DNA from: Betaproteobacteria bacterium
GTDB taxonomy: Bacteria; Pseudomonadota; Gammaproteobacteria; Burkholderiales; Burkholderiaceae_C
Length of the DNA: 61,142 bases
Reading direction: 5' to 3'
Assembly (NCBI GenBank): GCA_013289985.1
Contig: JABCYW010000021.1
Span: forward strand, 1-61,142
The notes under the pieces: model-generated
What the model was told of the DNA's origin: nothing
What the model saw: the letters and a program-made list of their open reading frames with translations, nothing else
Database searches by the model: none
Shown: piece after piece, positions 13,930 through 30,742 of the stretch
Layout of the letters: every line of letters starts with the position of its first letter
Position numbering within the stretch: position 1 is the stretch's first letter
Position numbers and translations under genes: made by a program

Positions 13930-14355
13930 ATGCAGGGTGAAGGACATCCGACCGAGAAGACCCGTTCGCCGATCTTGGAGGACGGCGAAAGTGCGCGTGG
14001 AATCGCCCAGCGCACCAATACGACCTGGCGTCACTTCGACACCGTCCTTTCGCCGATCATCGGGCATGGCGGCGTCGCAGCGCTCTATCGCCGCAGCCTC
14101 TTCCTGGTTCGCGCCGACCATCCCTGGTTGCCCGGAGCGCACGACGGAGCACTCGACCCTGTCGAGTTTGCAGAGTTGGAGTCGGCCATTGGTGGGCAAA
14201 CTGCCCACGACGCGAAGGTCGCATCCGAGGCCCTGGTGAACAGCTTTCGGGAGCTGCTGAGCGACTTGATCGGCCCTGCGCTCACGGAACGCCTGCTACG
14301 ACCGGTACCTCCTCTCACTTCGCACGGCGACGCTGTGCAGGACACCCGACCATGA
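13930..14355 (+). CDS. KaiC-coupled protein of unknown function
   Basis: A 141-residue soluble protein (RSPILEDGESARGIAQRTN..., TWRHFDTVLSPIIGHGGVAALYRRSLFLV..., SFRELLSDLIGPALTERLL). It is mostly helical in appearance with no signal peptide or membrane segment. Its stop codon overlaps the start of the KaiC-like gene (ATGA), so the two are translationally coupled and probably act together. ATG 13930 is chosen; TTG 13891 would add 13 residues. I do not recognise the family. The context (KaiC ATPase, GGDEF-kinase fusion, receiver) suggests a regulatory partner or phosphotransfer/adapter protein, which is inference. Confidence 0.65.
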   Translation: MQGEGHPTEKTRSPILEDGESARGIAQRTNTTWRHFDTVLSPIIGHGGVAALYRRSLFLVRADHPWLPGAHDGALDPVEFAELESAIGGQTAHDAKVASEALVNSFRELLSDLIGPALTERLLRPVPPLTSHGDAVQDTRP

Positions 14356-15869
14356 CCTCCGGAAAAGCAACGATCAATCGATTGAAGACCGGCGTACCTG
14401 GTTTCGACGAGGTGCTAGGCGGTGGACTGCCCGAGTTCTCGTTCAACGTCATTGCGGGCTCGCCGGGTTGCGGCAAGACAACCTTGGCACACCAGATGAT
14501 GTTCGCGCTGGCCACGCCCGAGCGACCAGCGCTGTACTTCACGGTGCTGGGAGAGCCTCCGCTGAAGATGCTGCGCTACCAGCAGCAATTTGACTTCTTC
14601 GACAGCCAGAAGATCGGCGGCTCGATTCACTTCGTCAACCTCGGCGAGGAGATGGCCGAAGGTGACTTGAAGAAGGTCCTGGATCGCATCGCTGCCGAGG
14701 TTCAGGCGCACAGTCCAGGACTGGTTTTCGTCGACTCGTTCCGCTCCGTGGTGCTGGCCAGCCAATCCATCAATCAGGCCTTCATCAGCCTGCAGGAATT
14801 TGTGCAAAAGCTGGGCATGCTGATGACCAGCTGGCAAGCCACGACATTTCTGATCGGCGAGTACTTCAGCGAAAGCGATCCGAATCCCGTGTTCACGGTC
14901 GCTGATGGGCTGATCTGGATGCGCCAGAGCGTCCAACGCAATTCCGTTGTCCGCAAGATGGAAGTCATGAAGGTACGCGGGCAGCCCACCTTGGCGGGAT
15001 TGCACACATTTCGCCTCAGCTCCACTGGAGTTCAAGTGTTTCCGCCAGCGCTGTCGCCAAGCGAAGTCGACTCTGGCGGTTTGGCCGCTGTCGATGACCG
15101 TTTGGCGATGGGGGTGCCAGGCCTGGACGAGATGATGGGCGGTGGACTGCCGCGCGGCTACTCGATCTTGATCGCCGGTCCGTCCGGCTCGGGAAAGAGC
15201 GTCCTCGCGGCGGCATTTCTTACCGAGGGAGCGCGCCGCGGTGAAACCGGCGTGATCGCTGCCTTCGAGCAGCGACCGACGCGGTCGCGTGGGCCGCACC
15301 TGGTGGAACTCGTCGCCAGCGGTCGCATCGGCGTCGTCGATTCTCGCGCTTCGTTCCTGTCGGTCGACGAGGTCGCGGCCCAGCTCATCGCCGAGGTGCA
15401 TCGCTTGAAGGCGACGCGCGTGGTGATCGACTCTCTGTCAGGCTTCGAGTTGGCCCTGGCGCCGACGTTTCGCGAAGACTATCGGGAATCGCTTTCGCGC
15501 ATGGTCATGGCACTGACGAGCACCGGCGCGACAGTGCTGATGACCTCCGAGCTCGAGGATCGCTACAACGACCTGCGTTTCAGTCCCTATGGGACGGCCT
15601 TCCTGACCGACGCGATCATCGTGCAACGCTACATCGAGGTCGACAGTCGTCTGAAGCGGGTGATGGCGGTCGTGAAGGTACGCGCCAGTGCCCACTCGGA
15701 TGAATTGCGGTTGTTCCACATCGATGACAACGGTATTCGGATCGGTTCGACGCTGGACGATTTTGAAGGGCTGCTGGGCGGCCGCCCGACGCGTCGGCTG
15801 GGAACCGGTACGGCGCCTGCTCAGCCGGCCGGTGACATTGTCGATTCCATCGGTGCCGGCGATGGCTGA
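14352..15869 (+). CDS. KaiC-like double-RecA ATPase
   Basis: A 505-residue protein with two tandem KaiC/RecA domains, close to the length of cyanobacterial KaiC (about 519). Domain 1: GVPGFDEVLGGGLPE, Walker A GSPGCGKTT (residues 36-44), Walker B LVFVDSF. Domain 2: GVPGLDEMMGGGLPRGYS, Walker A GPSGSGKSV (about 276-284), Walker B RVVIDSLSGFELAL. KaiC homologues outside cyanobacteria are ATPases with autokinase activity used in stress or signalling control, usually without KaiA. Here it is coupled to the unknown protein before it and followed 24 bp later by the GGDEF-histidine kinase gene and then a receiver, so it is probably part of a signalling module. There is no kaiB in the window. Confidence 0.85.
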   Translation: MTSGKATINRLKTGVPGFDEVLGGGLPEFSFNVIAGSPGCGKTTLAHQMMFALATPERPALYFTVLGEPPLKMLRYQQQFDFFDSQKIGGSIHFVNLGEEMAEGDLKKVLDRIAAEVQAHSPGLVFVDSFRSVVLASQSINQAFISLQEFVQKLGMLMTSWQATTFLIGEYFSESDPNPVFTVADGLIWMRQSVQRNSVVRKMEVMKVRGQPTLAGLHTFRLSSTGVQVFPPALSPSEVDSGGLAAVDDRLAMGVPGLDEMMGGGLPRGYSILIAGPSGSGKSVLAAAFLTEGARRGETGVIAAFEQRPTRSRGPHLVELVASGRIGVVDSRASFLSVDEVAAQLIAEVHRLKATRVVIDSLSGFELALAPTFREDYRESLSRMVMALTSTGATVLMTSELEDRYNDLRFSPYGTAFLTDAIIVQRYIEVDSRLKRVMAVVKVRASAHSDELRLFHIDDNGIRIGSTLDDFEGLLGGRPTRRLGTGTAPAQPAGDIVDSIGAGDG

Positions 15870-15893
15870 TCGGCCTTTCGCGCAGGCATCGCC

Positions 15894-17525
15894 ATGAGCG
15901 ATCCCCCCATGGACGTGACGGTAGCCGGCGCCGAGCGGCGGCTGGCCGATCTCAATGCGCAGGCGAACAGCGTGCGCGCAGAGCTCGCGGACCTTCAGCG
16001 CGATCTGGCGCAGGCGAGAGAAGAGTTCAGTTCGACTCAGGCAGCGCAGTTGCTGGAGGCCAACGAACAATTGGTGGTTTCGGCGTTGCATGCGCGCACC
16101 CTCGCCGACAGCGCACTCGCCGACCTGGTCGCCATGGCGCACACCAGTCAATACGACGAGCTGACAGAGACACCGAATCGGACACTGATGCTCGATCGCA
16201 TTCACGGCGCGATCGGGCTCGCCTGCCGGTACCGCAAGCAGGTTGCCGTGCTGTTCGTCGATCTCGACGGCTTCAAGAACATCAACGACACCCTGGGCCA
16301 CGCCGCCGGCGACGCTGTACTGCGTCGGGTCGCGTCTTGCCTGGCAGACAACGTCCGGCAGACCGACACCGTCAGTCGATTTGGGGGCGACGAGTTCCTG
16401 GTGCTGTTGACCGCCGTGACAGAAGCCTCTGACGCCGCGCTCATTGCCGCGAAAATGATCGCTGCGCTCGCGAACGCCGGTGCGGATCGAGGTGTGGCGT
16501 CGAGCCTGTCGGCCAGCATCGGGATTGCGATCTATCCGAACGATGCGGCCACCCCGGATGAGCTGATCCGATGCGCCGACGCGGCGATGTACCAGGCAAA
16601 GAGGCGCGGCCCCGGCCGAATTGCGTTCCATGCCGACATCGATGATCCGACCGAGCGACGCGCCATGCCATCGCTGCGCCCGCAAGTTCAGCCGCCGTCA
16701 GGTTTGAGCCTGCAACAGGCTGCCGACCTGCGCGAAGCCAATCAGCACCTGGTCGTGTCTGCTGTGGCCGCACAGGCGCGCGAAGACAGCACTCAGGTTT
16801 TCCATCGTCGACAGATAAAGTTCCTTGCCATGGTGGCGCACGAATTGCGCGGTCCGCTCATGCCGCTGCGAACGGCTACCGAATTGCTGCCACGTGCCAT
16901 GTCCGACGAACCCTTGATGGGCCGCCTGCAGGTACTGATCCGCCGCCAGATCGGCTATTTGACGAGGCTCGTCGAGGACCTGCTCGACGGGGCGCGCGCC
17001 AGTACCGGAAAATTCAGGCTGGAACGTACGCGGATCGACATGAATGCCATCCTCCGACAGGCGGTGGAGACCTGCGGGCCAGCGATGCAGGGACGCCACC
17101 AGCAGCTCACCATTCGCCTGCTGCCATCCGCGTTTGAAGTTGACGGCGACGGAATGCGTCTGACGCAGATCATGGTCAACTTGCTGGACAACGCTTCCAA
17201 GTACACACCCAACGAAGGCAGGATCACGCTGGAGGCGACCGTGAAAGACGGGCGTTTGTCGATCAGCGTTGCCGACAACGGGATCGGCGTCACTCCCGAC
17301 GCGTTGCCGCGGATATTCGACCTGTTCGAACAGGAGCCGCATGCTCGGGCGTTTCACTCTGGCGGACTTGGCATTGGCCTGTCGATCGTTCGCGAACTCA
17401 CCGAGACACACGGCGGAACGATCGTCGCCAAGAGCCCGGGCAAGGGCCTGGGCAGCGAATTCATCGTGACGCTGCCAGGCGCCTGTGTTGATGAGTCAAA
17501 CGGCAACCCAGATGCCTTCAACTGA
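15894..17525 (+). CDS. GGDEF diguanylate cyclase-histidine kinase fusion
   Basis: A 543-residue cytoplasmic protein with an unusual order. A coiled coil (about 10-80) is followed by a GGDEF domain (about 85-250) with VLFVDLDGFKNINDTLGHAAGD and an intact active-site GGDEF at 164-168. A second short coiled linker leads to a HisKA domain with AHELRGPLMPLR (phospho-His about 316) and a HATPase domain (NLLDNASKYTPNEG, VADNGIGV, GGLGIGLSIVREL). So one polypeptide could both make cyclic di-GMP and autophosphorylate. There is no input domain beyond the coiled coils, so the signal may come from the KaiC-like protein encoded just upstream. LLEANEQLVVSAL and LREANQHLVVSAV near each coiled coil are an internal duplication. 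Confidence 0.85.
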   Translation: MSDPPMDVTVAGAERRLADLNAQANSVRAELADLQRDLAQAREEFSSTQAAQLLEANEQLVVSALHARTLADSALADLVAMAHTSQYDELTETPNRTLMLDRIHGAIGLACRYRKQVAVLFVDLDGFKNINDTLGHAAGDAVLRRVASCLADNVRQTDTVSRFGGDEFLVLLTAVTEASDAALIAAKMIAALANAGADRGVASSLSASIGIAIYPNDAATPDELIRCADAAMYQAKRRGPGRIAFHADIDDPTERRAMPSLRPQVQPPSGLSLQQAADLREANQHLVVSAVAAQAREDSTQVFHRRQIKFLAMVAHELRGPLMPLRTATELLPRAMSDEPLMGRLQVLIRRQIGYLTRLVEDLLDGARASTGKFRLERTRIDMNAILRQAVETCGPAMQGRHQQLTIRLLPSAFEVDGDGMRLTQIMVNLLDNASKYTPNEGRITLEATVKDGRLSISVADNGIGVTPDALPRIFDLFEQEPHARAFHSGGLGIGLSIVRELTETHGGTIVAKSPGKGLGSEFIVTLPGACVDESNGNPDAFN

Positions 17526-20260: not shown

Positions 20261-20896
20261 TCACATGCTCTGCACGAAGGACGCGGCGTTCGCCATGTCT
20301 TCCGCAGTCAGACCATGCGCCACCGCCTTCATGGCGGGGCCATCGGGCCGACCCTCGGTGCGCTGGAACACGCGCAATTGCTTGACCACGTAGTCGCTGT
20401 GTTGCCCCGCCAGCCTCGGAAACGCGGCCAATCCCTGCCCGTGGTCGCCATGGCAACTGCTGCAGGCGGGAATTCCGCGCGTCGGAGCGCCGGTCGTGAA
20501 GAGCGCATGCCCTGCGTCGATGCGCGCCGGGTCGCCTTCAGGTGTCTGATGTGCGGGCACTTGTTTGGCGTAGTACGCGGCGAGATCCTTGATCTGCGTG
20601 TCGGTCAGGCGGCGCGCAATGCCCCACATGTATTCGAACCCGGCCGGATCCTCGCGCGAATGACTCCGGAACTCGGTCAGCTGCGCTACGACGTAGCCTT
20701 CGGTCTGGCCCGCGAGGTTGGGGAAGTTGGGCGACGTCGCCACGCCCGTCACGCCGTGGCACATCGAGCAGGCTTGCTGTGCCAGCACCGGACCGGGGAT
20801 GGCAGGATTGCCGAGATCGCGCGAGCGTTCCGGGTTCGCGCAGCCAACAGTCAGCCAAGCGGCTGCGCCGATGAGGGCCAAGGTCAGGATCTTCAT
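20261..20896 (-). CDS. Diheme cytochrome c lipoprotein (cytochrome c4-like)
   Basis: A 211-residue protein with two CXXCH hemes (CSMCH at 43-47, CSSCH at 145-149) in two similar cytochrome c domains, each ending with a Met-bearing helix (for example EYMWGIARRLTDTQIKDLAAYYA and PAMKAVAHGLTAEDMANAASFV). That is the cytochrome c4 layout. The signal peptide ends in LTVGC, a lipobox with Cys19, so it is probably a lipid-anchored periplasmic carrier. It lies 40 bp downstream of the cytochrome-porin gene and 139 bp upstream of the HiPIP gene, all on the minus strand. In this context it would accept electrons from the outer-membrane protein. Confidence 0.85.
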   Translation of the reverse strand: MKILTLALIGAAAWLTVGCANPERSRDLGNPAIPGPVLAQQACSMCHGVTGVATSPNFPNLAGQTEGYVVAQLTEFRSHSREDPAGFEYMWGIARRLTDTQIKDLAAYYAKQVPAHQTPEGDPARIDAGHALFTTGAPTRGIPACSSCHGDHGQGLAAFPRLAGQHSDYVVKQLRVFQRTEGRPDGPAMKAVAHGLTAEDMANAASFVQSM

Positions 20897-20936
20897 GGGA
20901 CGCTCCGGCAATGAGGAAACGGTTCGCTGTACATGC

Positions 20937-22418
20937 TCAGTAGGCCGTCCAGGCATACAGGAACAGCGAGTTGTTGTCCCCCGCGTTGCGACCGAACCCG
21001 TCGTAGTTGTCGCGCGCCCCGTTGAACTTCTCGTAGACCGTGTATTGCAGGCCCACACGCAGGTTCTGGATCGGCATCCAGAAAGTCTCGTACGTCATGC
21101 CGCGTGTCGCGGGGTTGCCCGTCAGGCTTCCGTTGACCCGAGTCGACGGTGCGTTGGCAGCCGGACTCGACGTGATCTTCAGCGTCGCCGGATCGTAGCC
21201 AGAGGTCTGGTTGGCGGTGTTGGTCGAACCGGTCAAGTCGAAAAGCGAAAAGCTGCCGCCATAGCGGGCTTGGTAGACGTATGAGAATTTTGCGCGCACC
21301 AGGTTCGTCTTGTCCGCACTCGACGTCAGCGGCAGCGCGTTGCCCTGTGAATCGACGAACGCAACAGGTTGGTTCGCCTGGCCGACAGGATAGACATGCT
21401 GGTTGTGCGTGACAACGAGCTGGGCAGTCAATGTGTGGGGATCGAGGAGGTACTGATACTGCGCGTCGACGATCTCGTCGCGGAAGCGATGAACCGTCGA
21501 CGGGTCAGAGGTGTCCAGCGGGTCGTCATAGATGCGCGCCGTCATGTGGGTCGCCCCGACCATCAGGCTGCTTGCTCCCCAGTTCTGGCTGAGTGCGATG
21601 CGCACGTACGGGTTGTTGCCGCGCAGCTTTGTGACGTCGGCATCCTTGAGCCCGGCCTTCATGAACGAGAACAGGCCTTTGGCCGTGCGGTAGTCGCCAG
21701 CTTCGACATAGACCAATTGATTCACGAATGCATACGCATTCACCCCGGCCACGTTGCCCCCCGCCGACAGGCCCGGGTATGGCGACGCCCCGTCGATGAA
21801 CTGGCTGCTCGTGGGGCTCGGAACAGGCACGTACTGCATCCAGGCCGCCGCGGTGTTCCAGGGGTCAGTCACCGAGGGGTTGTCGTTCACGCTGACGCCG
21901 AAGATGACGTCATGGCTCTCGCCGATGAAGCGGTCTGCGTAGCGGATATCCATGTTGTCCGCGCCGAACTGCCCCTTGAACTTTCCGGAGTCCGTGGTGA
22001 TCGCATAGGGGTCCCACGTGAACTGTGTAAATGCACCGATGTTGTCGGTGATCTTGCCGCCCAGGAAGAGGCTTGCCGTGGCAAAGATCGGCTTGTCGTT
22101 CTTCTGGAAGTCCGCCGCCGGATCGTCGCTCTTCGAGGTGTTCGCCACCTTGGACACACTGCCGAGGGCCATCAGAGAAACTGAGACGGTGCGAACACCG
22201 AGCGTGTAGCCCGTCATCTTGAACAATCGCCCGTAGTTGGTGAGCTCTGGGAACTGTCCGCCTGCATGGCATGCGAGGCAGTTCTGGCCTGTCTGGCGAT
22301 TGAAAAGCGGGATCGCCGACGCAGAAGTTGGCATCAGGGCGAAGATCAGCGGCGCCATCGCCATCGCGACAGCAAGCCGACCACGCAGGCCGTGACGCTC
22401 GGCATCAAGAAGTTTCAT
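20937..22418 (-). CDS. Outer-membrane cytochrome-porin fusion (Cyc2-like)
   Basis: A 493-residue protein with a signal peptide (ends about residue 35, ASA), one heme c motif close to the mature N-terminus (NCLACH, residues 46-51) followed by FPELTNYGRLFKMTGYTLG, and then about 420 residues of alternating beta-strand pattern ending in LFLYAWTAY, typical of an outer-membrane barrel. A single N-terminal heme joined to a porin is the design of Cyc2, the outer-membrane Fe(II) oxidase of iron-oxidising bacteria, although related proteins of unknown role also exist. The cytochrome c4-like and HiPIP genes follow on the same strand, giving a possible path from the cell surface through the periplasm. 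Fe(II) oxidation is inference. Confidence 0.75.
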   Translation of the reverse strand: MKLLDAERHGLRGRLAVAMAMAPLIFALMPTSASAIPLFNRQTGQNCLACHAGGQFPELTNYGRLFKMTGYTLGVRTVSVSLMALGSVSKVANTSKSDDPAADFQKNDKPIFATASLFLGGKITDNIGAFTQFTWDPYAITTDSGKFKGQFGADNMDIRYADRFIGESHDVIFGVSVNDNPSVTDPWNTAAAWMQYVPVPSPTSSQFIDGASPYPGLSAGGNVAGVNAYAFVNQLVYVEAGDYRTAKGLFSFMKAGLKDADVTKLRGNNPYVRIALSQNWGASSLMVGATHMTARIYDDPLDTSDPSTVHRFRDEIVDAQYQYLLDPHTLTAQLVVTHNQHVYPVGQANQPVAFVDSQGNALPLTSSADKTNLVRAKFSYVYQARYGGSFSLFDLTGSTNTANQTSGYDPATLKITSSPAANAPSTRVNGSLTGNPATRGMTYETFWMPIQNLRVGLQYTVYEKFNGARDNYDGFGRNAGDNNSLFLYAWTAY

Positions 22419-22579: not shown

Positions 22580-22595
22580 TGTTCGATGCCGAACA
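22580..22595. promoter_or_regulatory. 16-bp dyad TGTTCG-ATGC-CGAACA
   Basis: Perfect 6-bp inverted repeat with a 4-bp spacer, 162 bp upstream of the cytochrome-porin start. It shares the pattern TGTKCG-N4-CGMACA with 22686-22701 and 26322-26337. The outer TGT...ACA spacing matches Crp/Fnr-superfamily operators. Confidence 0.6.
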
Positions 22596-22685
22596 AAGTG
22601 GGTAGCCGTGCTCGCGGGTCGAATGCATTTGCCAGATCAACCGGGAACACGGCCGCTCGCGAGCTGGGCATGTTGCGGTCGGCTC

Positions 22686-22701
22686 TGTGCGACACCGAAC
22701 A
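22686..22701. promoter_or_regulatory. 16-bp dyad TGTGCG-ACAC-CGAACA
   Basis: Second copy of the dyad (one mismatch between arms) in the same divergent region, 100 bp before the kinase start codon. Its left arm equals that of the 26322 site and its right arm that of the 22580 site. Confidence 0.55.
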
Positions 22702-22800
22702 GACGGGGCGGCCAAGAGGAGCTAGCTTGCTTTGGCCCATCTGTGAGTCTTGCGCCGCCGTCGTTCGAAGAGCAGGCGGCGAACTGATCGAGGACTTCAA

Positions 22801-23931
22801 ATGATGATGCATGCGTTTCTGAGCAACAACCGCGGCGAGCTGATCGGAAGATGCAAGGTGAAGGTTGCGGCAAGACCCAAGAGAGCCGCGAGCGAGATTC
22901 AGCTTTCGAACGGCATTCCAATGTTCTTGGACCAGCTGATTCGAACTTTGCCGGCAGAAGATGCTGGTGAACACGAGGAGAGCATCGGAATTTCTGGAGC
23001 CTCGGGTGGCGCTGGTTTGGCACTCTCCGAGATGGGCGTCAGTGCCGCTGCGCACGGCGCCAGTCTCCTTGGGTTGGGATATGCGGTCGACCAGGTCGTT
23101 CACGACTATGGAGATCTGTGCCAGGCCATCACGGACTTGGCGTTCGAACGCGACGCCCCCTTTTCCGTCGACGAGTTCCGCACGTTGAATCGCTGTCTCG
23201 ACAACGCCATCGCGGACGCGGTACTGGAGTTCACTGCCCAACGCGACGTACGGGTATTGGCAGTCCACACGAACGAAGCCAAAGAGCGCGTCGGCTTTCT
23301 GGTGCACGAGCTCCGGAACGCGCTTTCGACAGCACGCGTGGCAGTGAGCGCGCTGGAGTTCGGAAACTTGAACGTGGCCGGAGCGACTGGCGCGGTGTTG
23401 AAGCGGAGCCTTGCATCGTTGGGCGTCCTCATCGGCCGCGCAGTGGACGAGGTACGCCATGGGACGGTGTCCGAACGGCAGGTCTTTGCCATCGCGTCGT
23501 TCATCGAGGATGCCGAGAGCGCTGCACGCCTCGAAGCGGACGCCGCCGGTTGCGAGCTCCTGGTACGTCCCGTACTTCAGGACATGTCCGTCCGCGGCAA
23601 TCGACCCATGCTGCATGCGGCGCTGGCCAACCTTCTTCAGAACGCCTTCAAATTCACACACGCTCACACGAAGATCACGCTTCTGGCTTTCGCACTCGAC
23701 GGCAAGGCGCTCATCGAAGTGCACGACCATTGCGGCGGACTGCCACACGGAACGGTCGAGGGGATGTTTACGCCATTTACCCAGCGCAGTGCTGACAAGA
23801 CAGGGCTGGGTCTCGGCCTGGCCGTCGCGCGACACAGTGTCGAGGCGGATTTCGGTACGCTGTCCGTTCGAGATGTGCCTGGGACAGGTTGCGTGTTCAC
23901 GATCGCCCTCCCGTTGCACCTGACCCTCTGA
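22801..23931 (+). CDS. Soluble sensor histidine kinase with RsbRD-like N-terminal domain
   Basis: A 376-residue protein without membrane segments. Residues 1-150 (HAFLSNNRGELIGRCKVKVA...YAVDQVVHDYGDLCQAITDLA) resemble the helical N-terminal domain of RsbR/RsbU-type stress regulators. The HisKA region has VGFLVHELRNALSTARVAVSAL with the phospho-His, and the HATPase domain has NLLQNAFKFTHAH, IEVHDHCGGLP and TGLGLGLAVARHSVEAD. The catalytic N-box is intact. ATG 22801 starts an ATGATGATG run. The gene is divergent from the cytochrome-porin and shares its putative operators, so it may be regulated with it. No cognate receiver is adjacent. Confidence 0.8.
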   Translation: MMMHAFLSNNRGELIGRCKVKVAARPKRAASEIQLSNGIPMFLDQLIRTLPAEDAGEHEESIGISGASGGAGLALSEMGVSAAAHGASLLGLGYAVDQVVHDYGDLCQAITDLAFERDAPFSVDEFRTLNRCLDNAIADAVLEFTAQRDVRVLAVHTNEAKERVGFLVHELRNALSTARVAVSALEFGNLNVAGATGAVLKRSLASLGVLIGRAVDEVRHGTVSERQVFAIASFIEDAESAARLEADAAGCELLVRPVLQDMSVRGNRPMLHAALANLLQNAFKFTHAHTKITLLAFALDGKALIEVHDHCGGLPHGTVEGMFTPFTQRSADKTGLGLGLAVARHSVEADFGTLSVRDVPGTGCVFTIALPLHLTL

Positions 23932-24063
23932 AAGCCCTCATGACCGGCTGTCGATGCGCGCTGGCGCACAGACCCCGCGCCTCGACGCGCCCATGCTGAA
24001 GGGCGCCGCGTGGCGTGTTTCAAACGCACAGGCTCTTCTTCCAATCAATTTCGAAGGATTCAC

Positions 24064-24636
24064 ATGACCAACATCAAGACTCTCGCCGCGATTGGCTGCG
24101 CCGTTCTCCTTGGAGCAGGCTGCACGACGACGCCCAACACCGTCACCGAGGGCTCCATGGATGCAAAGCGTGTCGGCCTCGATGCCAACGTGCAGAGCGC
24201 CCTGAAGGGTCTGGCGACCCAGGTTCCGGGCTCGCGCGACCTGGTTCGCCAGGCCCGAGGAATCCTCGTCTTTCCGGAGGTCATCTCGGGAGGACTCGTG
24301 ATCGGGGCCTCTCACGGCCGCGGCGCGCTGGTCGCCGACGGCGTCACGAATGGCTACTACAACTCGACCGCCATCTCGGTAGGCTTGCTCGCTGGCGCGG
24401 AATCGAAAGCTGTCTACGTCCTGTTCATGACGCAGGATGCTCTCGACAAGTTCAAGGCGAGCAAGGGCTGGACGGCCGGCGTCGACGCGGCGGTCACGCT
24501 GCTCAAGGTAGGCGCAGATGGCACGGTCGACACGCAGACGGTGCAAGCCGCCATCGTGGGATTCGCGCTGACCAACGGCGGACTCATGGCGAACCTCAGC
24601 ATTGAAGGATCGAAGTTCTCCAAGGTCGAGTACTGA
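24064..24636 (+). CDS. YSC84/SYLF-domain lipoprotein
   Basis: A 190-residue exported lipoprotein: signal peptide with lipobox LLGAGC (Cys20), then a SYLF/Ysc84 domain (ARGILVFPEVISGGLVIGASHGRGALV...GYYNSTAISVGLLAGAESKAVYVLFMTQDALDKF...AAIVGFALTNGGLMANLSIEGSKFSKVE). SYLF proteins bind membranes or phosphoinositide-like lipids; bacterial copies are periplasmic lipoproteins of unknown role, often stress-induced. ATG 24064 has a modest ribosome-binding site (AAGGA). A degenerate dyad-like stretch (TGTTTC-AAA-CGCACA, about 24018-24032) lies upstream. It is convergent with the first Crp/Fnr gene. Confidence 0.8.
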   Translation: MTNIKTLAAIGCAVLLGAGCTTTPNTVTEGSMDAKRVGLDANVQSALKGLATQVPGSRDLVRQARGILVFPEVISGGLVIGASHGRGALVADGVTNGYYNSTAISVGLLAGAESKAVYVLFMTQDALDKFKASKGWTAGVDAAVTLLKVGADGTVDTQTVQAAIVGFALTNGGLMANLSIEGSKFSKVEY

Positions 24637-24653
24637 TCGGTAGCCAGCGAACG

Positions 24654-25385
24654 TCAGGCGGGTTGCGCGTCGGGCTCCGGCAGTGCGAACTGCGCGGTGT
24701 AGGCCGCCAGGTCGCTGGCGTAGCAACTGCACGCGGCGAGTTCGAGTCCGGCACGATCGACGATCGTCATGACGCCGCGTTCGTAGGAAATGAGGTGCCT
24801 TCGCTGCAATCCACCAGCGGCCACCGTCACGCCCACCCTCCGAACGCCCAGCATGTACGCCAGGAACTCCTGGGTCAGCTTGAAGACGTCGGAAAGCGCC
24901 CTGTCCTGGCTCATCAACAGCCAGCGCGCGAGCCGTTGCTCGATCAAGTGGAAGCGCAGGCAGGCAGCGGCGCGAGCATGCTGAGACAGCAGCACGTAGA
25001 CGTATCGGTCGAGCGTAGAACGAAGGGTGGGAGTGCTCGCCAGTTCACGCATGAATGCCGTCGCTTCGATCCGCAGCGCCTGCCCCTCTCCTTGCACGAG
25101 CGACTTGAGGGGCTCGCTCGACACGCCGAGGGCGAGCTGGATTCCCAGCATCCCCTCGCGGCCGACCATGCCCACTTCGATGGCATGGTCGCTGTCGGCC
25201 AGTGCCAGGAGCGATACGAAGCCGTCGATCGGAAAGTGCACATGCGTCGTGGGAGCCCCTGCTTCGCCGAGGATGCGGGACAGCGGAAGGTCGACGATTT
25301 CGCCGATCGAGCCGAGACGGACGCGCGCTGCCTCGGGCAACCGCGCGAGCAACTGGTTGGATGAGTGGTGCACAGGGGACTCCAT
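24654..25385 (-). CDS. Crp/Fnr-family transcriptional regulator (paralogue 1)
   Basis: A 243-residue regulator with a cyclic-nucleotide-binding-like jelly roll (LPLSRILGEAGAPTTHVHFPIDGFVSLLALADSDHAIEVGMVGREGMLG) and a C-terminal winged helix (LTQEFLAYMLGVRRVGVTVAAGGLQRRHLISYERG). It lacks the Fnr N-terminal cysteine cluster and the canonical cAMP pocket. This short type is common in Burkholderiales beside stress genes and its ligand is usually unknown. ATG 25385 was chosen over a start 72 bp upstream. The second Crp/Fnr gene lies 135 bp upstream in the same direction. Confidence 0.85.
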   Translation of the reverse strand: MESPVHHSSNQLLARLPEAARVRLGSIGEIVDLPLSRILGEAGAPTTHVHFPIDGFVSLLALADSDHAIEVGMVGREGMLGIQLALGVSSEPLKSLVQGEGQALRIEATAFMRELASTPTLRSTLDRYVYVLLSQHARAAACLRFHLIEQRLARWLLMSQDRALSDVFKLTQEFLAYMLGVRRVGVTVAAGGLQRRHLISYERGVMTIVDRAGLELAACSCYASDLAAYTAQFALPEPDAQPA

Positions 25386-25520
25386 GGTGCCGCGCCCCTC
25401 GACTGATGCGAGCGATGGAACGCGCCGGTCGACTCCCTGCATCGACCGCACCCGCACGTCAGTCTCTCACGGCGTGCATCCACTGACCGTGCCCCAGCGC
25501 ACAAAGCGTGCGGCCAGCGT

Positions 25521-26231
25521 CTAGCGCGCAATGACCGCAGGCAGCAGTCGGTCGTATTCGTTCTTCACGACGGCATAGCACTCACAGCTACGGCTCTCGA
25601 GGCCGGGCCGGTCGAGCACCTTGATATGCCCGCGGCTGTAGCTGATCAAACCAGCCCGTTGCAATTTCAATGCCCCTTCCGTGACGCCTTCGCGTCGAAC
25701 TCCCAGCATGTTGGCGATGAGTTCCTGCGTCATCACCAGTTCGTTCCCGTGCAGCCTGTCCAGGCTCAGCAACAGCCATCGGCAAAGTTGCTGGTCCAGG
25801 GAATGGTGCCGATTGCAGACGGCGGTCTGCGCCATCTGGGTCAGCAAGGCCTGGGTATAGCGCAGCAGCAGGTGGAGCACCGGGCCCGCCAGGTTGAACT
25901 CCGTCTTCATTCGCCCGGCGCTGAGGCGATAGCCCTCGCCCGCGCTCTGCACGACCGCCCGGCTGGGCGTGGTTTCGCCGCCCATGAACAGCGACACTCC
26001 CACGATCCCTTCGTTTCCCACGACGGCGATCTCTGCCGACGCGCCGTTCTCCATCACGTACAGCAACGACACGATTGCCGTGGTCGGGAAATAGACGTGG
26101 CTCAACGTGCTGCCCGACTCATACAGAACCATGCCCAGCGGCAGGTTTACCTTCTCGAGCACCGGCTCCCAACGCTTCCACTCCGCCTCGGGCAGCGAAT
26201 TGAGCAGACGGTTCTTCTTGGGGTTGAGCAT
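25521..26231 (-). CDS. Crp/Fnr-family transcriptional regulator (paralogue 2)
   Basis: A 236-residue paralogue with the same layout: effector jelly roll (LPLGMVLYESGSTLSHVYFPTTAIVSLLYVMENGASAEIAVVGNEGIVG) and winged helix (MTQELIANMLGVRREGVTEGALKLQRAGLISYSRGHIKVLDRPGLE). The recognition-helix segment VRREGVTEGALKLQ differs from that of paralogue 1 (VRRVGVTVAAGGLQ) but both are of the same class, so their operators may overlap. A 16-bp dyad lies 91 bp upstream of its start (26322-26337), consistent with autoregulation and control of the divergent alcohol dehydrogenase; this is inference. ATG 26231 is preferred over an N-terminal extension of 29 residues. Confidence 0.85.
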   Translation of the reverse strand: MLNPKKNRLLNSLPEAEWKRWEPVLEKVNLPLGMVLYESGSTLSHVYFPTTAIVSLLYVMENGASAEIAVVGNEGIVGVSLFMGGETTPSRAVVQSAGEGYRLSAGRMKTEFNLAGPVLHLLLRYTQALLTQMAQTAVCNRHHSLDQQLCRWLLLSLDRLHGNELVMTQELIANMLGVRREGVTEGALKLQRAGLISYSRGHIKVLDRPGLESRSCECYAVVKNEYDRLLPAVIAR

Positions 26232-26589
26232 GGGCGTGAACGCTTCGGTACCCGCGGCACCCGGAGCGGGAAATTGGCGGGCGAACGAAGAGCGCACTCT
26301 ACTCCGCGGAGCTCTCATGACTGTGCGCTACCGCACATAGAAACCCTCCTGGCATCATTCCGCGCCCGGCTTGCGGCAGCGAACGCGACCCGGGCCGGGG
26401 CACGCGCTTCGTGCCTGGACTTTGGCCTGCGTCTGCCAACGCACAGACCCGGGCATTCGACCCGCGCACCGTGAGGCACCGAACCCGACTTGCCACCCTT
26501 TGCCGGCGAAGCCGTCCGACATCCGAAGGAACTTGACGAAGCTCGTGGCGAGACCTCTCCCTCCTATCAGACTCCTCAAGGACACTGAC
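26232..26589. promoter_or_regulatory. Divergent control region, Crp/Fnr paralogue 2 versus alcohol dehydrogenase
   Basis: 358 bp with no convincing gene. It contains the dyad at 26322-26337 and, nearer the dehydrogenase, an AAGGA ribosome-binding site (about 26577-26581) before ATG 26590. The open frame extending upstream of the dehydrogenase is Arg/Pro-rich and not part of the family protein. Confidence 0.55.
26322..26337. promoter_or_regulatory. 16-bp dyad TGTGCG-CTAC-CGCACA
   Basis: Perfect 6-bp inverted repeat with a 4-bp spacer, giving TGTG-N8-CACA, the geometry of Crp-type operators (TGTGA-N6-TCACA). It matches the two dyads at 22.6 kb. It lies between a Crp/Fnr gene and the alcohol dehydrogenase gene. 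Confidence 0.6.
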
Positions 26590-27627
26590 ATGCAAGCCCT
26601 CGTCTATAACGGCCCCGGCCGCAAGAATGTCGAAGACCGTGCCAAACCCGTGCTGACCATGCCGGGCGACGCGATCGTGCGCATCACGCGCACGACGATA
26701 TGCGGCACCGATCTGCACATCCTCAAGGGCGACGTCGCCACCTGCAAGCCCGGCACGATCCTCGGGCACGAGGGTGTCGGGATCATCGACGCCGTCGGCG
26801 CGGCGGTCACCGCCTTCAAGCCAGGCGACCACGTCCTCATCTCATGCATCAGTGCCTGCGGTCGCTGTGAGCCGTGCCGCAAGGGCATGTATTCGCACTG
26901 CGCCACCGGGGGCTGGATCCTGGGCAACAGCATCGACGGCACGCAAGCCGAGTACGTGAGAATCCCGCATGCCGATACGAGCCTCTACCCGATCCCCGAC
27001 GGCGCGGACGAGGAAGCGCTGGTGATGCTCAGCGACATCCTGCCCACCGGTTTCGAGTGCGGCGTCCTGAACGGCAAGGTGGCGCCCGGCTCCAGCGTGG
27101 CGATCGTCGGCTCCGGCCCGATCGGCCTGGCCGCGCTGCTCACGGCGCAGCTCTATTCGCCGGCGCAGATCATCATGGTCGACCTCGACGACAACCGGCT
27201 CGCCGTCGGCAAGCAGTTCGGCGCGACCGATATCGTCAACAGCGGCGGGGGCGACGCTGCGCAGCAGGTGATGGTACTCACGGGAGGACGCGGCGTGGAC
27301 ACCGCGATCGAGGCGGTCGGCATTCCGGCCACCTTCCAGATCTGCCAGGACATCGTCGCGGCCGGGGGCACGATCGCCAACGTCGGCGTGCACGGCGTGA
27401 AGGCGGACCTGCACCTGGAGACGCTCTGGTCGAAGAACATCACCATCACCACGCGCCTGGTCGACACCGTGACGATCCCGATGCTGCTCAAGACGCTTCG
27501 CTCGGCCCGGATCGACGCCGGCAAGCTGATCACCCATCGTTTCAAGTTCGACAAGATCCTCGACGCGTACGAGACGTTCGGCAAGGCCGCGGACACGCAG
27601 GCGCTCAAGGTCATCATCGAAGCTTGA
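26590..27627 (+). CDS. Zinc-dependent alcohol dehydrogenase (medium-chain)
   Basis: A 345-residue medium-chain dehydrogenase/reductase. The catalytic zinc site is seen in TTICGTDLHILKG and LGHEGVGII; the structural zinc is held by the four cysteines of CISACGRCEPCRKGMYSHC; the cofactor fold has VAIVGSGPIGLAALLTAQLYSP with an acidic residue (MVDLDDNRL) pointing to NAD rather than NADP. It oxidises alcohols or reduces aldehydes. ATG 26590 follows an AAGGA ribosome-binding site. Similar genes accompany Usp and CBS proteins in betaproteobacterial low-oxygen or stationary-phase regulons, which fits the neighbours here. Confidence 0.85.
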   Translation: MQALVYNGPGRKNVEDRAKPVLTMPGDAIVRITRTTICGTDLHILKGDVATCKPGTILGHEGVGIIDAVGAAVTAFKPGDHVLISCISACGRCEPCRKGMYSHCATGGWILGNSIDGTQAEYVRIPHADTSLYPIPDGADEEALVMLSDILPTGFECGVLNGKVAPGSSVAIVGSGPIGLAALLTAQLYSPAQIIMVDLDDNRLAVGKQFGATDIVNSGGGDAAQQVMVLTGGRGVDTAIEAVGIPATFQICQDIVAAGGTIANVGVHGVKADLHLETLWSKNITITTRLVDTVTIPMLLKTLRSARIDAGKLITHRFKFDKILDAYETFGKAADTQALKVIIEA

Positions 27628-27678: not shown

Positions 27679-28503
27679 TCAGTGCGAGACAAGGGAACAA
27701 CGACGAGGACTCATGAGCAGGTCCTTGGTGACGCCGCCCAGGATCCATTCGCGCAGGCGGCTATGTCCGTACGCACCGGCCACGATGACGTCGCAATGCT
27801 CGCTGTCCGCGACGGAGCGAAGATCGGCGGCGTCGTCACCGCTCGAGGACACAGGGAATGCCCTGGCCGCGACGTCGTGTTGCATCAACCAGGCGACGAC
27901 CTCGTCGAGGTGACGGCGCGCAGCATCGATGTGGCCTTCCTTGACCACCTCCACGACGGTCACTTCCGCGCGTTGCATCAAAGGCAGCGCATCGACGATG
28001 GCGCGCCGTGTCTCGCGGCTATCCTTCCAACCCACCAGAACGCGATCGAACTTCGACGACGGGCGGGCGAGCGGGACCAGCAGCACCGGGCGCCCGACCT
28101 GCATCACCAACGCCCCCATGCTCAATGCACGGGTGCCATCGAACATGTCGCCCTGCCCGACGGCAGCGACCACCAGATCGGCGGTGCGCGCCTGGCGCGA
28201 GATGCATCGGGCGAGATCTGCGTAGTCCTTCATTGCGCGCCAATCCAGATCCACCTTCCGATCGCGAAACGCGTCCCTGAACTCGCCCTGCGCTGTCCCG
28301 ACCTGCTGGTCGACCGCATCCCGCGCTGCCACCCAAGCGTCTCCTGCCAGTCCGATGTCGCCATAGACCATCATCGGCGGCGCGCACGCGACGACGCCCA
28401 TGACCCGCGCGTCGAAACGCTCCGACAACTCGCCGGCGACCTGCAGCAGGTGCTCGTTCGACCTTCCCAGTTCCAGATGCACGAGCAGACTCTTGTATCC
28501 CAC
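27679..28503 (-). CDS. Universal stress protein, tandem UspA domains
   Basis: A 274-residue protein made of two UspA-like halves. The first starts YKSLLVHLELGRSNEHLLQVAGELSERFDARVMGV; the second ends with DVIVAGAYGHSRLREWILGGVTKDLL, containing the G-X2-G-X9-G(S/T)-type nucleotide-binding end. Start GTG 28503 is supported by a strong AAGGAG ribosome-binding site; an ATG-initiated version 14 codons longer lacks one. It is 42 bp downstream of the small gene at 28546-28875 and probably co-transcribed with it. Usp proteins protect cells during stress or starvation. Confidence 0.85.
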   Translation of the reverse strand: MGYKSLLVHLELGRSNEHLLQVAGELSERFDARVMGVVACAPPMMVYGDIGLAGDAWVAARDAVDQQVGTAQGEFRDAFRDRKVDLDWRAMKDYADLARCISRQARTADLVVAAVGQGDMFDGTRALSMGALVMQVGRPVLLVPLARPSSKFDRVLVGWKDSRETRRAIVDALPLMQRAEVTVVEVVKEGHIDAARRHLDEVVAWLMQHDVAARAFPVSSSGDDAADLRSVADSEHCDVIVAGAYGHSRLREWILGGVTKDLLMSPRRCSLVSH

Positions 28504-28545: not shown

Positions 28546-28875
28546 TCAATTCGATTGAATCCTGGAGAGGTGCGAGCTCTCGCTGACGAGCGCCTCGACC
28601 TCCTTGCGGAACTGCTCCTCGCTGACGCGGTAGCCGCATCCGTCTTCCAGCGAGCTTGCGTACTCTTCGCACAGCGAATTGATGGAGTCCATCAGACCGT
28701 AGAAGCCGGGTCCGGCTGCAAAGGTGGGGGCCACGTCGGCGCCGTACGCGAGAGGAGCACCGTCACACCGCCAAAGGTGCGAGAAGCGCGAGATGAACAC
28801 GTCGGCACTCCATCGACAACCGAGGAACTTCTCGAGCACGCGGCGGTAGGCGCTTTCGTCATGGATGAGTTTCAT
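28546..28875 (-). CDS. Hypothetical protein, 109 residues
   Basis: An acidic soluble protein (HDESAYRRVLEKFLGCRWSADVFISRFSHLWRCDGAPLAYG...LMDSINSLCEEYASSLEDGCGYRVSEEQFRKEVEALV). The pattern F-I-S-R-F-x-x-L-W and a late D/E-E-x-x-x-R-x-E-V helix recall colicin-D-immunity-like small proteins, but I hold this only as a resemblance. Several cysteines are present. It is the first gene of a probable operon with the universal stress protein and is divergent from the CBS protein gene. Confidence 0.6.
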   Translation of the reverse strand: MKLIHDESAYRRVLEKFLGCRWSADVFISRFSHLWRCDGAPLAYGADVAPTFAAGPGFYGLMDSINSLCEEYASSLEDGCGYRVSEEQFRKEVEALVSESSHLSRIQSN

Positions 28876-28928: not shown

Positions 28929-28944
28929 TGTACGGCATCGCGCA
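28929..28944. promoter_or_regulatory. Degenerate copy of the 16-bp dyad
   Basis: TGTACGGCATCGCGCA matches TGTKCG-N4-CGMACA at ten of twelve defined positions. It lies in the 114-bp divergent region between the hypothetical/Usp operon and the CBS gene, the same kind of position as the better copies. Could be chance. Confidence 0.3.
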
Positions 28945-29484: not shown

Positions 29485-29698
29485 GGTCCTGGACTCAACG
29501 GTGGTGACCAGGCTCCCCCATTGCCGGGGGGAGTCGTGATGCCGACCTTGAAGAACGATCTGGATGGCGGGACTGGGTGCCATCCGATCGAATTTGAATG
29601 GAGGCACCAAAGGTTGACCCATCGTGCGGCTGCAAGGCTGCTGAAGTCTGAAATTTCAACCTGTGCTCGATCGCGTGTCGGCGAGCTGGAGAATCAAA

Positions 29699-30742
29699 AT
29701 GCGCCTTTCCATTCTTGTGGTCTCGATGGCCCTGGCAGCGATGCCTGCGGCGCCCGCACTGGCACAGGTCAGCCTGAGCATCGGCGTGAACATCCCGATG
29801 TACCCGGACTTCGCACAGGTGCCCGACTACCCGGTCTACTACACGCCCGGGCTGGCCAACAATCTCTTCTACTACGACGGCATGTACTGGCTGCTCGAGG
29901 GCGACAGCTGGTACGCGAGCACCTGGTACAACGGGCCCTGGCAGAGTGTGGACGCGCAAGGCGTGCCGCTGTTCGTGCTGCGCGTGCCCGTGCGCTACTA
30001 CCGCAGCCCGCCAGCGTACTTCCGCGGCTGGCAGGGCGACGCGCCGCCGCGCTGGGATGACCATTGGGGCCCCGATTGGTCGCAGCATCATCGTGGCTGG
30101 GACCAATGGAATCGCCACGACGCGCCGAGGCCCGCCCCTCTGCCGACGTACCAGCGGCAGTACAGCGGAGCTCGCTATCCGCAGGCCGAGCAGCAACTGG
30201 TGATACGCCAGCAGAACGACAAGTACCAGCCACACGACGCAGCCGTGCGCCAGCGCCTCCAGCAGGCCGCACAGCCCGTGCCCGCTCAGGCACGGCAGGC
30301 CGCAGCGCCGCAACAACCCGATCAACAGCATGCGCAGCGGGAACACCCCCCACAGCGCGAGCAGCAGCAAAAACAGCAACAGCAGCAGCAGGCTCAGCAG
30401 GAGAAGCAGACGCAACAAGAACAGCAGCAGAAGCAACCAGCGCAGCAACAGGTTCAGCACGAACAACAGCAAAAGCAGCAACAGCAGGCTCAGCAGCAAA
30501 AGCAGGCACAACAAGAACAGCAGCAGAAGCAACAAGGCCAGCAGCTGGCCCAGCATGAACAACAGCAGAACCAGCAACAACAGGCCCAGCAGAACAAGGC
30601 GCAGCGTCAGGAGCAGGAGCAGCATGCCGCCGTCCGGGAGCCGGAACGCCCTGCGCCCTCTGCCCATGAACCTGCCAAGGAAGCAAAGCCAGCCCCCGAA
30701 CGGAACAAGGCTGACCAAAGCAGCGAGGACAACAGGAAGTAG
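29699..30742 (+). CDS. Exported protein with YXGPW-type domain and Gln-rich repeat tail
   Basis: A 347-residue exported protein. A signal peptide (RLSILVVSMALAAMPAAPALA) is followed by an aromatic-rich domain (about 25-150: VPDYPVYYTPGLANNLFYYDGMYWLLEGDSWYASTWYNGPW...VPVRYYRSPPAYFRGW) of a type widespread in betaproteobacteria and of unknown function. Residues about 190-310 are made mostly of Gln with Lys, Ala, Glu and His in irregular 5-8 residue repeats, then a Pro/Glu/Lys tail. The Gln tract is encoded by CAG/CAA-rich DNA (30358-30620) that is repetitive and may vary in length between strains. ATG 29699 begins the signal peptide. Likely envelope-associated. Confidence 0.75.
   Translation: MRLSILVVSMALAAMPAAPALAQVSLSIGVNIPMYPDFAQVPDYPVYYTPGLANNLFYYDGMYWLLEGDSWYASTWYNGPWQSVDAQGVPLFVLRVPVRYYRSPPAYFRGWQGDAPPRWDDHWGPDWSQHHRGWDQWNRHDAPRPAPLPTYQRQYSGARYPQAEQQLVIRQQNDKYQPHDAAVRQRLQQAAQPVPAQARQAAAPQQPDQQHAQREHPPQREQQQKQQQQQQAQQEKQTQQEQQQKQPAQQQVQHEQQQKQQQQAQQQKQAQQEQQQKQQGQQLAQHEQQQNQQQQAQQNKAQRQEQEQHAAVREPERPAPSAHEPAKEAKPAPERNKADQSSEDNRK

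Follow-up and report, generated by a model that had tools for sequence, protein, structure and literature searches.

We analysed a 61,142-nucleotide stretch of DNA (hereafter the window) comprising positions 1 to 61,142 of the forward strand of contig JABCYW010000021.1, from the assembly GCA_013289985.1 of a Betaproteobacteria bacterium. The window contains an island of stress- and redox-related genes that includes two Crp/Fnr-type regulators, Crp1 and Crp2, and in which a 16-bp dyad, TGTKCG-N4-CGMACA, recurs. The exact motif occurs three times, whereas 100 dinucleotide shuffles of the window average 0.07 occurrences and never exceed 1. Two copies, TGTTCG-N4-CGAACA (22580..22595, minus strand) and TGTGCG-N4-CGAACA (22686..22701, plus strand), each followed by GAC, share the divergent region between the start of a porin-like gene (22418, minus) and that of a sensor kinase gene (22801, plus). 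The third, TGTGCG-N4-CGCACA followed by GTC (26322..26337, minus), occupies the divergent region between the starts of Crp2 (26231, minus) and an alcohol dehydrogenase (ADH; 26590, plus). The initial annotation of this DNA had described three dyads with shared arms and spacing in divergent intergenic regions, and this description is borne out. The genome-wide search proposed there revealed that the exact motif is nearly confined to the island: the complete assembly (5,957,398 bp in 210 contigs) holds four exact copies, three of them in the island, and one copy of the backward control. The fourth copy (C6:61874) is inside a 617-aa gene predicted by our own gene caller.

When mismatches were allowed, the counts approached background. 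The window has 20 motif matches with up to two mismatches (19.1 expected), and the genome has 79 with up to one mismatch, against 64 for the backward control. Outside the island, 10 of the 11 one-mismatch places examined, which are those returned as loci by the genome search, fall inside predicted genes. Weak forms of the dyad are therefore not acceptable on the plain pattern alone.

The porin-like gene (20937..22418, minus) encodes a 493-aa protein that owes its name to the initial annotation; Pfam and NCBIfam scans of it returned no match. A cytochrome gene adjoins it in many homologous loci, and here the neighboring cytochrome c protein (20261..20983, minus) has two matched haem-domain stretches (Pfam Cytochrom_C and Cytochrome_CBB3). 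On the other side of the divergent region are a sensor histidine kinase (22801..23931, plus; HATPase_c) and a SYLF-domain lipoprotein of the BPSL1445 family (24064..24636, plus; 233 bits, cut-off 200). Crp1 (24654..25385, minus; recognition helix RRVGVTV) matched only HTH_Crp_2 in Pfam, and Crp2 (25521..26231, minus; recognition helix RREGVTE) matched both HTH_Crp_2 and cNMP_binding above cut-off. The start codon of Crp2 is most likely at 26231, chosen where the orthologues begin to align; from this codon the 26322 site is some 90 bp upstream. Family scans identified the ADH as zinc-type (26590..27627, plus) and the next gene as a universal stress protein (Usp; 27679..28503, minus). Upstream of Usp on the same strand is ORF109 (28546..28875, minus), an open reading frame (ORF) of 109 aa in which family scans detected no known domain. 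After ORF109 comes a CBS gene on the plus strand.

Conservation of the dyad was evaluated in two sets of Crp2 loci, which share some organisms and in which genes were called with a simple script of our own. A Crp2 search of 120 genomes of the family led to 30 fetched loci, of which 29 were counted (our own was omitted, and one has only 78 bp upstream). Within 250 bp upstream of Crp2, 10 loci had the unmodified motif in exact form and 19 had it when one mismatch was allowed; the backward motif gave 0 and 0, and mononucleotide shuffles gave 0.005 and 0.03. The second set consists of 80 named loci, including those of Variovorax, Ramlibacter, Polaromonas, Collimonas, Rubrivivax, Thiomonas, Thiocystis and Methylovorus. 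Of these, 79 were used (the dropped one has 36 bp upstream). Within 300 bp upstream, the motif was found exactly in 19 of the 79 loci, with at most one mismatch in 56 and with at most two in 66. The corresponding counts were 0, 0 and 3 for the backward motif, 0, 0 and 2 inside the gene, and 1, 2 and 11 of 75 loci for a more distant upstream segment of 300 bp. Refinement of the motif gave the consensus TGTDCG-NTAN-CGHACA.

The refined site also tracks the Crp2 gene across genomes. We defined Crp2 as present at an expectation value (E) ≤1e-50 in the family and ≤1e-40 in the class; these thresholds, and the 40-kb distance used below, were chosen after the lists had been viewed. Among the 120 family genomes, the refined exact pattern TGTDCGNTANCGHACA was detected in 25 of 52 with Crp2 and in 5 of 68 without (Fisher test, 3e-7), with 40 refined sites in total against 3 of the backward control. 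Among 276 sampled genomes of the class, 19 of the 35 with a Crp2 match had a refined site, compared with 22 of 241 without (2e-9), and removal of our own family left 17/33 versus 22/240 (3e-8). As the backward control is present in 18 of the 276 class genomes, the 22 site-bearing genomes without Crp2 look like background. The class threshold admits Crp1-type genes as well (our own Crp1 scores 1.7e-57), and five class positives with a best E above 1e-90 (G307, G353, G445, G451 and G488), all of them without a site, may be Crp1-type. The association between site and gene holds in both samples, with presence of the refined site following presence of the Crp2 gene. In the 17 genomes outside the family that have both gene and site, 29 of 38 sites have a Crp2- or Crp1-type gene no more than 40 kb away, and in one genome (G434) six of seven sites are within 24 kb of its Crp pair. 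The sites therefore tend to cluster into a local regulon, as the initial annotation had proposed.

One genome, G038, had 30 exact motif matches. However, 28 of them belong to a single array (C1:473954-477929) in which identical copies of TGTTCGCTGCCGCACA are spaced by multiples of 60 bp. The array has no relation to the regulon, and the idea of a large regulon in this genome was rejected.

In class II promoters of the CRP/FNR type, the center of the regulator site is near -41.5. We analyzed spacing in 59 Crp2 promoters with a site of at least 15 bits and found that a TATACT-like box starts at position 22 downstream of the site (z 5.1). A good -10-like box 20-23 bp away occurred in 38 of the 59 promoters and at 10 of 295 control offsets. 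A -10 box that starts at -12, 22 bp after a 16-bp site, puts the center of that site at -41.5, and the Crp2 promoters therefore have what their sequences predict to be class II geometry. Sites in front of other genes have the same peak at 22 (z 4.8; 30/114 versus 31/570).

Two models were built from promoters of other organisms. Model R1, a sequence-only model, comprises 27 Crp2 promoters. These were picked for a -10-like box at +22, which makes the -10 portion of the model partly circular. The second model comprises 38 Crp1 promoters. In a search of our genome (E ≤10) in which 150 of 946 first-look candidates were scored, all six R1 matches fell in the island, at four sites: 22686, 22580 (both strands), 26322 (both strands) and 23955. 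Applied to the window without filters, its eight best matches were at five island sites, 28929 on the minus strand among them, and the scan did not recover 25488 on its expected strand. The top seven window matches of the Crp1-promoter model (scores 25.0-14.4) were 23955(+), 25488(-), 28929(-), 22686(+), 22580(-), 26322(-) and 26430(+), which point respectively to SYLF, Crp1, ORF109-Usp, the kinase, porin-cytochrome, Crp2 and ADH. In all seven, GAC or GTC comes directly after the site. The next four matches score lower (12.5-7.0) and begin with 26322(+); at a score of at least 7, shuffled windows gave a mean of 5 matches and the reversed window gave 4.

The models bear on the weaker sites of the island. 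A weak dyad, TGCGCG-N4-CGCACA followed by GAC (23955..23970, plus), was recovered by a position weight matrix and by both models; it lies between two co-directional genes and is the predicted promoter site of the SYLF lipoprotein. It replaces a weak form that the initial annotation had placed near 24018, which was discarded for its 3-bp spacer. The other weak form listed there, TGCGCG-N4-CGTACA followed by GAC (28929..28944, minus), held up: it is in a divergent region, was recovered by both models trained on other genomes, and marks a candidate ORF109-Usp promoter. Two additional weak sites were identified. One is the asymmetric TGTGCG-N4-GGCACG followed by GTC (25488..25503, minus), in the predicted Crp1 promoter. 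The other is the hybrid CGTCTG-N4-CGCACA followed by GAC (26430..26445, plus), in a candidate ADH promoter, which only the Crp1-promoter model recovered.

A -10-like box was assigned to each site in the window. When the best of four offsets was taken, this box starts at +22 for 22580 (TAGCGT, 22558-22553, score 3.0; predicted class II promoter of the porin-cytochrome genes), 22686 (TAGCTT, 22723-22728, score 3.0; predicted sensor kinase promoter), 23955 (CATGCT, 23992-23997, score 2.6), 25488 (GAGACT, 25466-25461, score 2.6) and 28929 (CAAGCT, 28907-28902, a poor box with a score of 2.0). It starts at +21 for 26322 (TAGAGT, 26301-26296, score 3.6; predicted autoregulatory Crp2 promoter). The box of the 26430 site is CACCGT (26467-26472). 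In intergenic DNA of the window, with two adjacent positions allowed, scores of at least 3.0 and at least 2.6 arise by chance in 1.2% and 5.5% of cases. The 28929 box scores higher on the plus strand (2.2 versus 2.0 on the minus strand) and is thus no argument for direction.

The initial annotation had predicted a local regulon extending from the porin-cytochrome cassette to, perhaps, the Usp and CBS genes, and most of this prediction is supported. Within the window, the sites support membership of porin-cytochrome, the kinase and Crp2, and less strongly that of ADH and ORF109-Usp. The CBS gene was dropped from the targets: in both models the 28929 site reads on the minus strand and faces ORF109-Usp. 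An ADH homolog is present in 5 of the 80 named loci, three of which have, close to its start, a site with a box at +22.

We also searched for targets elsewhere. The 80 named loci contain 172 sites of at least 13 bits outside the Crp2 promoter, compared with 9 in the reversed control. With Crp2 promoters and the window counted in, 184 sites reach at least 16 bits. Of these, 139 are close to the predicted start of a gene and 108 are intergenic; by our own gene calls, 88% of this DNA is coding. Domain scans covered 75 of 86 candidate target proteins and 71 of 86 sampled control genes. Recurring among the 75 targets were response regulators (6), OmpA (6), outer-membrane barrels (5), BON (4), PAS plus kinase domains (4), CsbD (3) and fatty-acid hydroxylases (3). 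None of these families reached two among the 71 control proteins, in which GGDEF occurred three times (twice among the targets). At four loci (L128, L175, L185 and L189) a site is near the predicted start of a very large ORF, which we take to be cyclic glucan synthase-like.

Two other features of the window were compared with the named loci. A 359-aa ORF with a long glutamine-rich stretch (29663-30742) has a homolog near Crp2 in 1 of the 80. Homologs of a KaiC-like gene occur within the fetched flanks (≤10 kb) of Crp2 in 8 of the 80; in the window, the region 14352-17525 presumably encodes this KaiC-like ATPase followed by a GGDEF/histidine-kinase protein.

A Crp1-type gene (identity at least 46%) is near Crp2 in 48 of the 80 named loci. 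Many Crp1 promoters contain the asymmetric site TGTGCG-N4-CAGACA, followed by GTC and, at +22, by a CACACT-like box; this asymmetric site is a new finding of the analysis. The best site upstream of Crp1 reached at least 10 bits in 29 of the 48 loci, compared with one in the reversed control. Crp1 sites were accepted in 38 of the 48 loci, with a right half of either type allowed and a -10-like box favored. Position 12 is A in 27 of these 38 sites, whereas among 112 half-sites from Crp2 promoters only 2 have it. By this measure, 27 of the 38 accepted Crp1 sites are hybrids of the kind expected upstream of one paralog in an Fnr1/Fnr3-like, heterodimer-regulated system. The strict hybrid pattern occurs in nine copies in 7 of the 120 family genomes (control, 0), and four of the nine copies have a Crp1-type match 60-80 bp downstream. 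All seven of these genomes match Crp2, as do 45 others in which the strict hybrid is absent. Our own genome lacks the strict hybrid site, and its asymmetric Crp1 site has GGCACG, not CAGACA, as the second half. The recognition helices differ as well: Crp2 has Glu at two positions (77/80 and 75/80) at which other residues prevail in Crp1, and at the first of them Crp1 has Val in 37 of 48 sequences and Glu in 7.

The predicted structure of Crp2 has the Crp/Fnr fold (predicted local distance difference test score, 87). Its best PDB matches are CRP of Mycobacterium tuberculosis and GlxR, followed by FNR, with FNR of A. fischeri among them at a template modeling score of about 0.75. The helix-turn-helix (HTH) and cyclic nucleotide-binding (cNMP) domains, and a palindromic site of matching spacing near the regulator gene, place Crp2 in the CRP/FNR superfamily. 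It is set apart from FNR proper by its half-site, which is TGTDCG and not TTGAT, and the N-terminal cysteine set that supplies the [4Fe-4S] ligands of FNR was not found in the Crp2 alignments. Across 41 Crp2 sequences, Cys139, His142, His143, Cys216 and Cys218 are invariant and C150 is nearly so. Crp2 also ends in a CECY motif at the C-terminus, with a helix following the DNA-binding domain, and CxCY is present in 43 of 48 Crp1 segments.

In combination, these comparisons indicate that the dyad is most likely a conserved Crp/Fnr operator with predicted class II geometry, probably bound by Crp2 and serving a local stress regulon. We regard it as quite probable that the dyad is the operator of Crp2 and that stress/redox genes of the island are activated from it in a class II manner. 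A Crp2 dimer would bind the predicted site centered at -41.5 and would activate its own gene (autoactivation) and that of its paralog Crp1, as well as the sensor kinase, the SYLF lipoprotein and the porin-cytochrome pair. On weaker evidence, it may also activate ADH and ORF109-Usp. We infer Crp2 as the binder, the activating effect and control by a redox or stress signal.

Several observations weigh against this interpretation. No site was found at 13 of the 79 named Crp2 loci even with two mismatches, the strict refined pattern is missing from 27 of the 52 Crp2-bearing genomes of the family, and that pattern was derived partly from loci of the same family. The genome-wide R1 search scored 150 of 946 first-look candidates, and at 26322 R1 favors the plus strand (17.5 bits) over the direction of Crp2 (14.9 bits). 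The -10-like boxes in the window match TATAAT poorly. Sites in front of other genes give an equal spacing peak when read in the reverse orientation (z 5.2; 29/114 versus 38/570), so spacing alone cannot tell which neighbor is served. Membership of the kinase and porin genes is also poorly conserved. A site was found at 3 of 10 other kinase loci (nine candidates were scored per genome), and none was found at 19 porin loci besides our own (of 27 matches, 20 loci were retrieved, our own included); these memberships thus vary between lineages, and we rejected the porin as a general feature of the regulon. Of the three sites whose conservation the initial annotation had proposed as a check, the Crp2 site is conserved (19/29 family and 56/79 named loci with at most one mismatch), and the porin and kinase sites are poorly conserved.

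Alternatively, the sites could be those of Crp1, or of a heterodimer of Crp1 with Crp2, and not of Crp2 homodimers alone, with symmetric and asymmetric forms bound by different dimers. The frequent pairing of the two genes, the related site in Crp1 promoters with its distinctive A at position 12, and the divergent recognition helices are all consistent with this possibility. There is also a precedent: for Fnr1 and Fnr3 of Herbaspirillum seropedicae, a hybrid half-site motif has been described at promoters that include the one of a paralog, and a heterodimer was proposed (PMC5934665). However, two genomes (G045 and G048) have a single Crp2-type match and no second paralog (E ≤1e-3), yet they carry a symmetric site about 100-155 bp in front of it, and we consider this alternative unlikely. 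For the hybrid site itself, binding of a Crp1-Crp2 heterodimer is conceivable, and the simpler explanation is a low-affinity Crp2 site.

It is considerably less probable that another regulator, merely co-present with Crp2, binds the sites. Of the 241 class genomes that lack a Crp2 match, 22 do carry exact refined sites, but this rate is near that of the backward control (18/276), many genera have the site fixed in front of the Crp2 gene, and in length and symmetry the site suits a Crp/Fnr dimer. Chance similarity, or the composition bias of a GC-rich genome, would account for the plain pattern with one or two mismatches, which is at or near background. The exact sites, the footprint upstream of Crp2, the co-occurrence and the spacing are all far above their controls, and the probability of this explanation is negligible. 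Returning to Crp2 as the regulator, a broader scheme can be proposed tentatively, although we think it doubtful. In this scheme, a widespread Crp/Fnr pair of Beta- and Gammaproteobacteria controls a compact stress regulon in which symmetric TGTKCG-N4-CGMACA sites serve Crp2 homodimers and hybrid TGTGCG-N4-CAGACA sites serve Crp1-Crp2 heterodimers. Such an arrangement would build in an order of activation, and C139, H142, H143, C216 and C218 may constitute a new redox or metal sensor.

Among the papers listed by searches of the open-access literature, none dealt with such a site, which is weak evidence of absence as most subscription journals were outside the scope of these searches. Within that literature the general type is known, and we did not encounter the site, the promoter pair or the hybrid site. 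The results provide a little-studied Crp/Fnr group with a DNA target, a promoter architecture and likely target genes. Because the same site precedes the gene of the regulator in many bacteria, it is a testable target, and because matches to the Crp2 alignment (E ≤1e-40) occur in 35 of 276 class genomes, it allows regulon prediction in many organisms. The genes adjacent to sites elsewhere (OmpA-type, BON, CsbD, response-regulator and PAS-kinase) form a stress-like set whose control is now directly testable.

The predicted operator can be compared with those of known systems. Sites of Escherichia coli CRP are TGTGA-N6-TCACA, and its recognition helix is RETVGR. The dyad described here shares with them the 16-bp length and half-site spacing, and Crp2 shares the Crp-type HTH and the predicted class II position at -41.5, but the half-site is TGTKC instead of TGTGA and the helix of Crp2 is RREGVTE. 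FNR, ANR and FixK recognize TTGAT-N4-ATCAA; they share superfamily and fold with Crp2, but their half-site differs and Crp2 has no conserved N-terminal cysteines. The lxa locus of Burkholderia cenocepacia, a related bacterium, is a stress-related cluster with Usp genes, and the island resembles it by this description only. A further comparison is with Fnr1/Fnr3 of H. seropedicae. Unlike Crp1 and Crp2, these are described as oxygen-responsive Fnr proteins with Fnr-like sites, but there, as here, two paralogs go together with a hybrid half-site motif, which in H. seropedicae marks a group of promoters that takes in the one of a paralog (PMC5934665).

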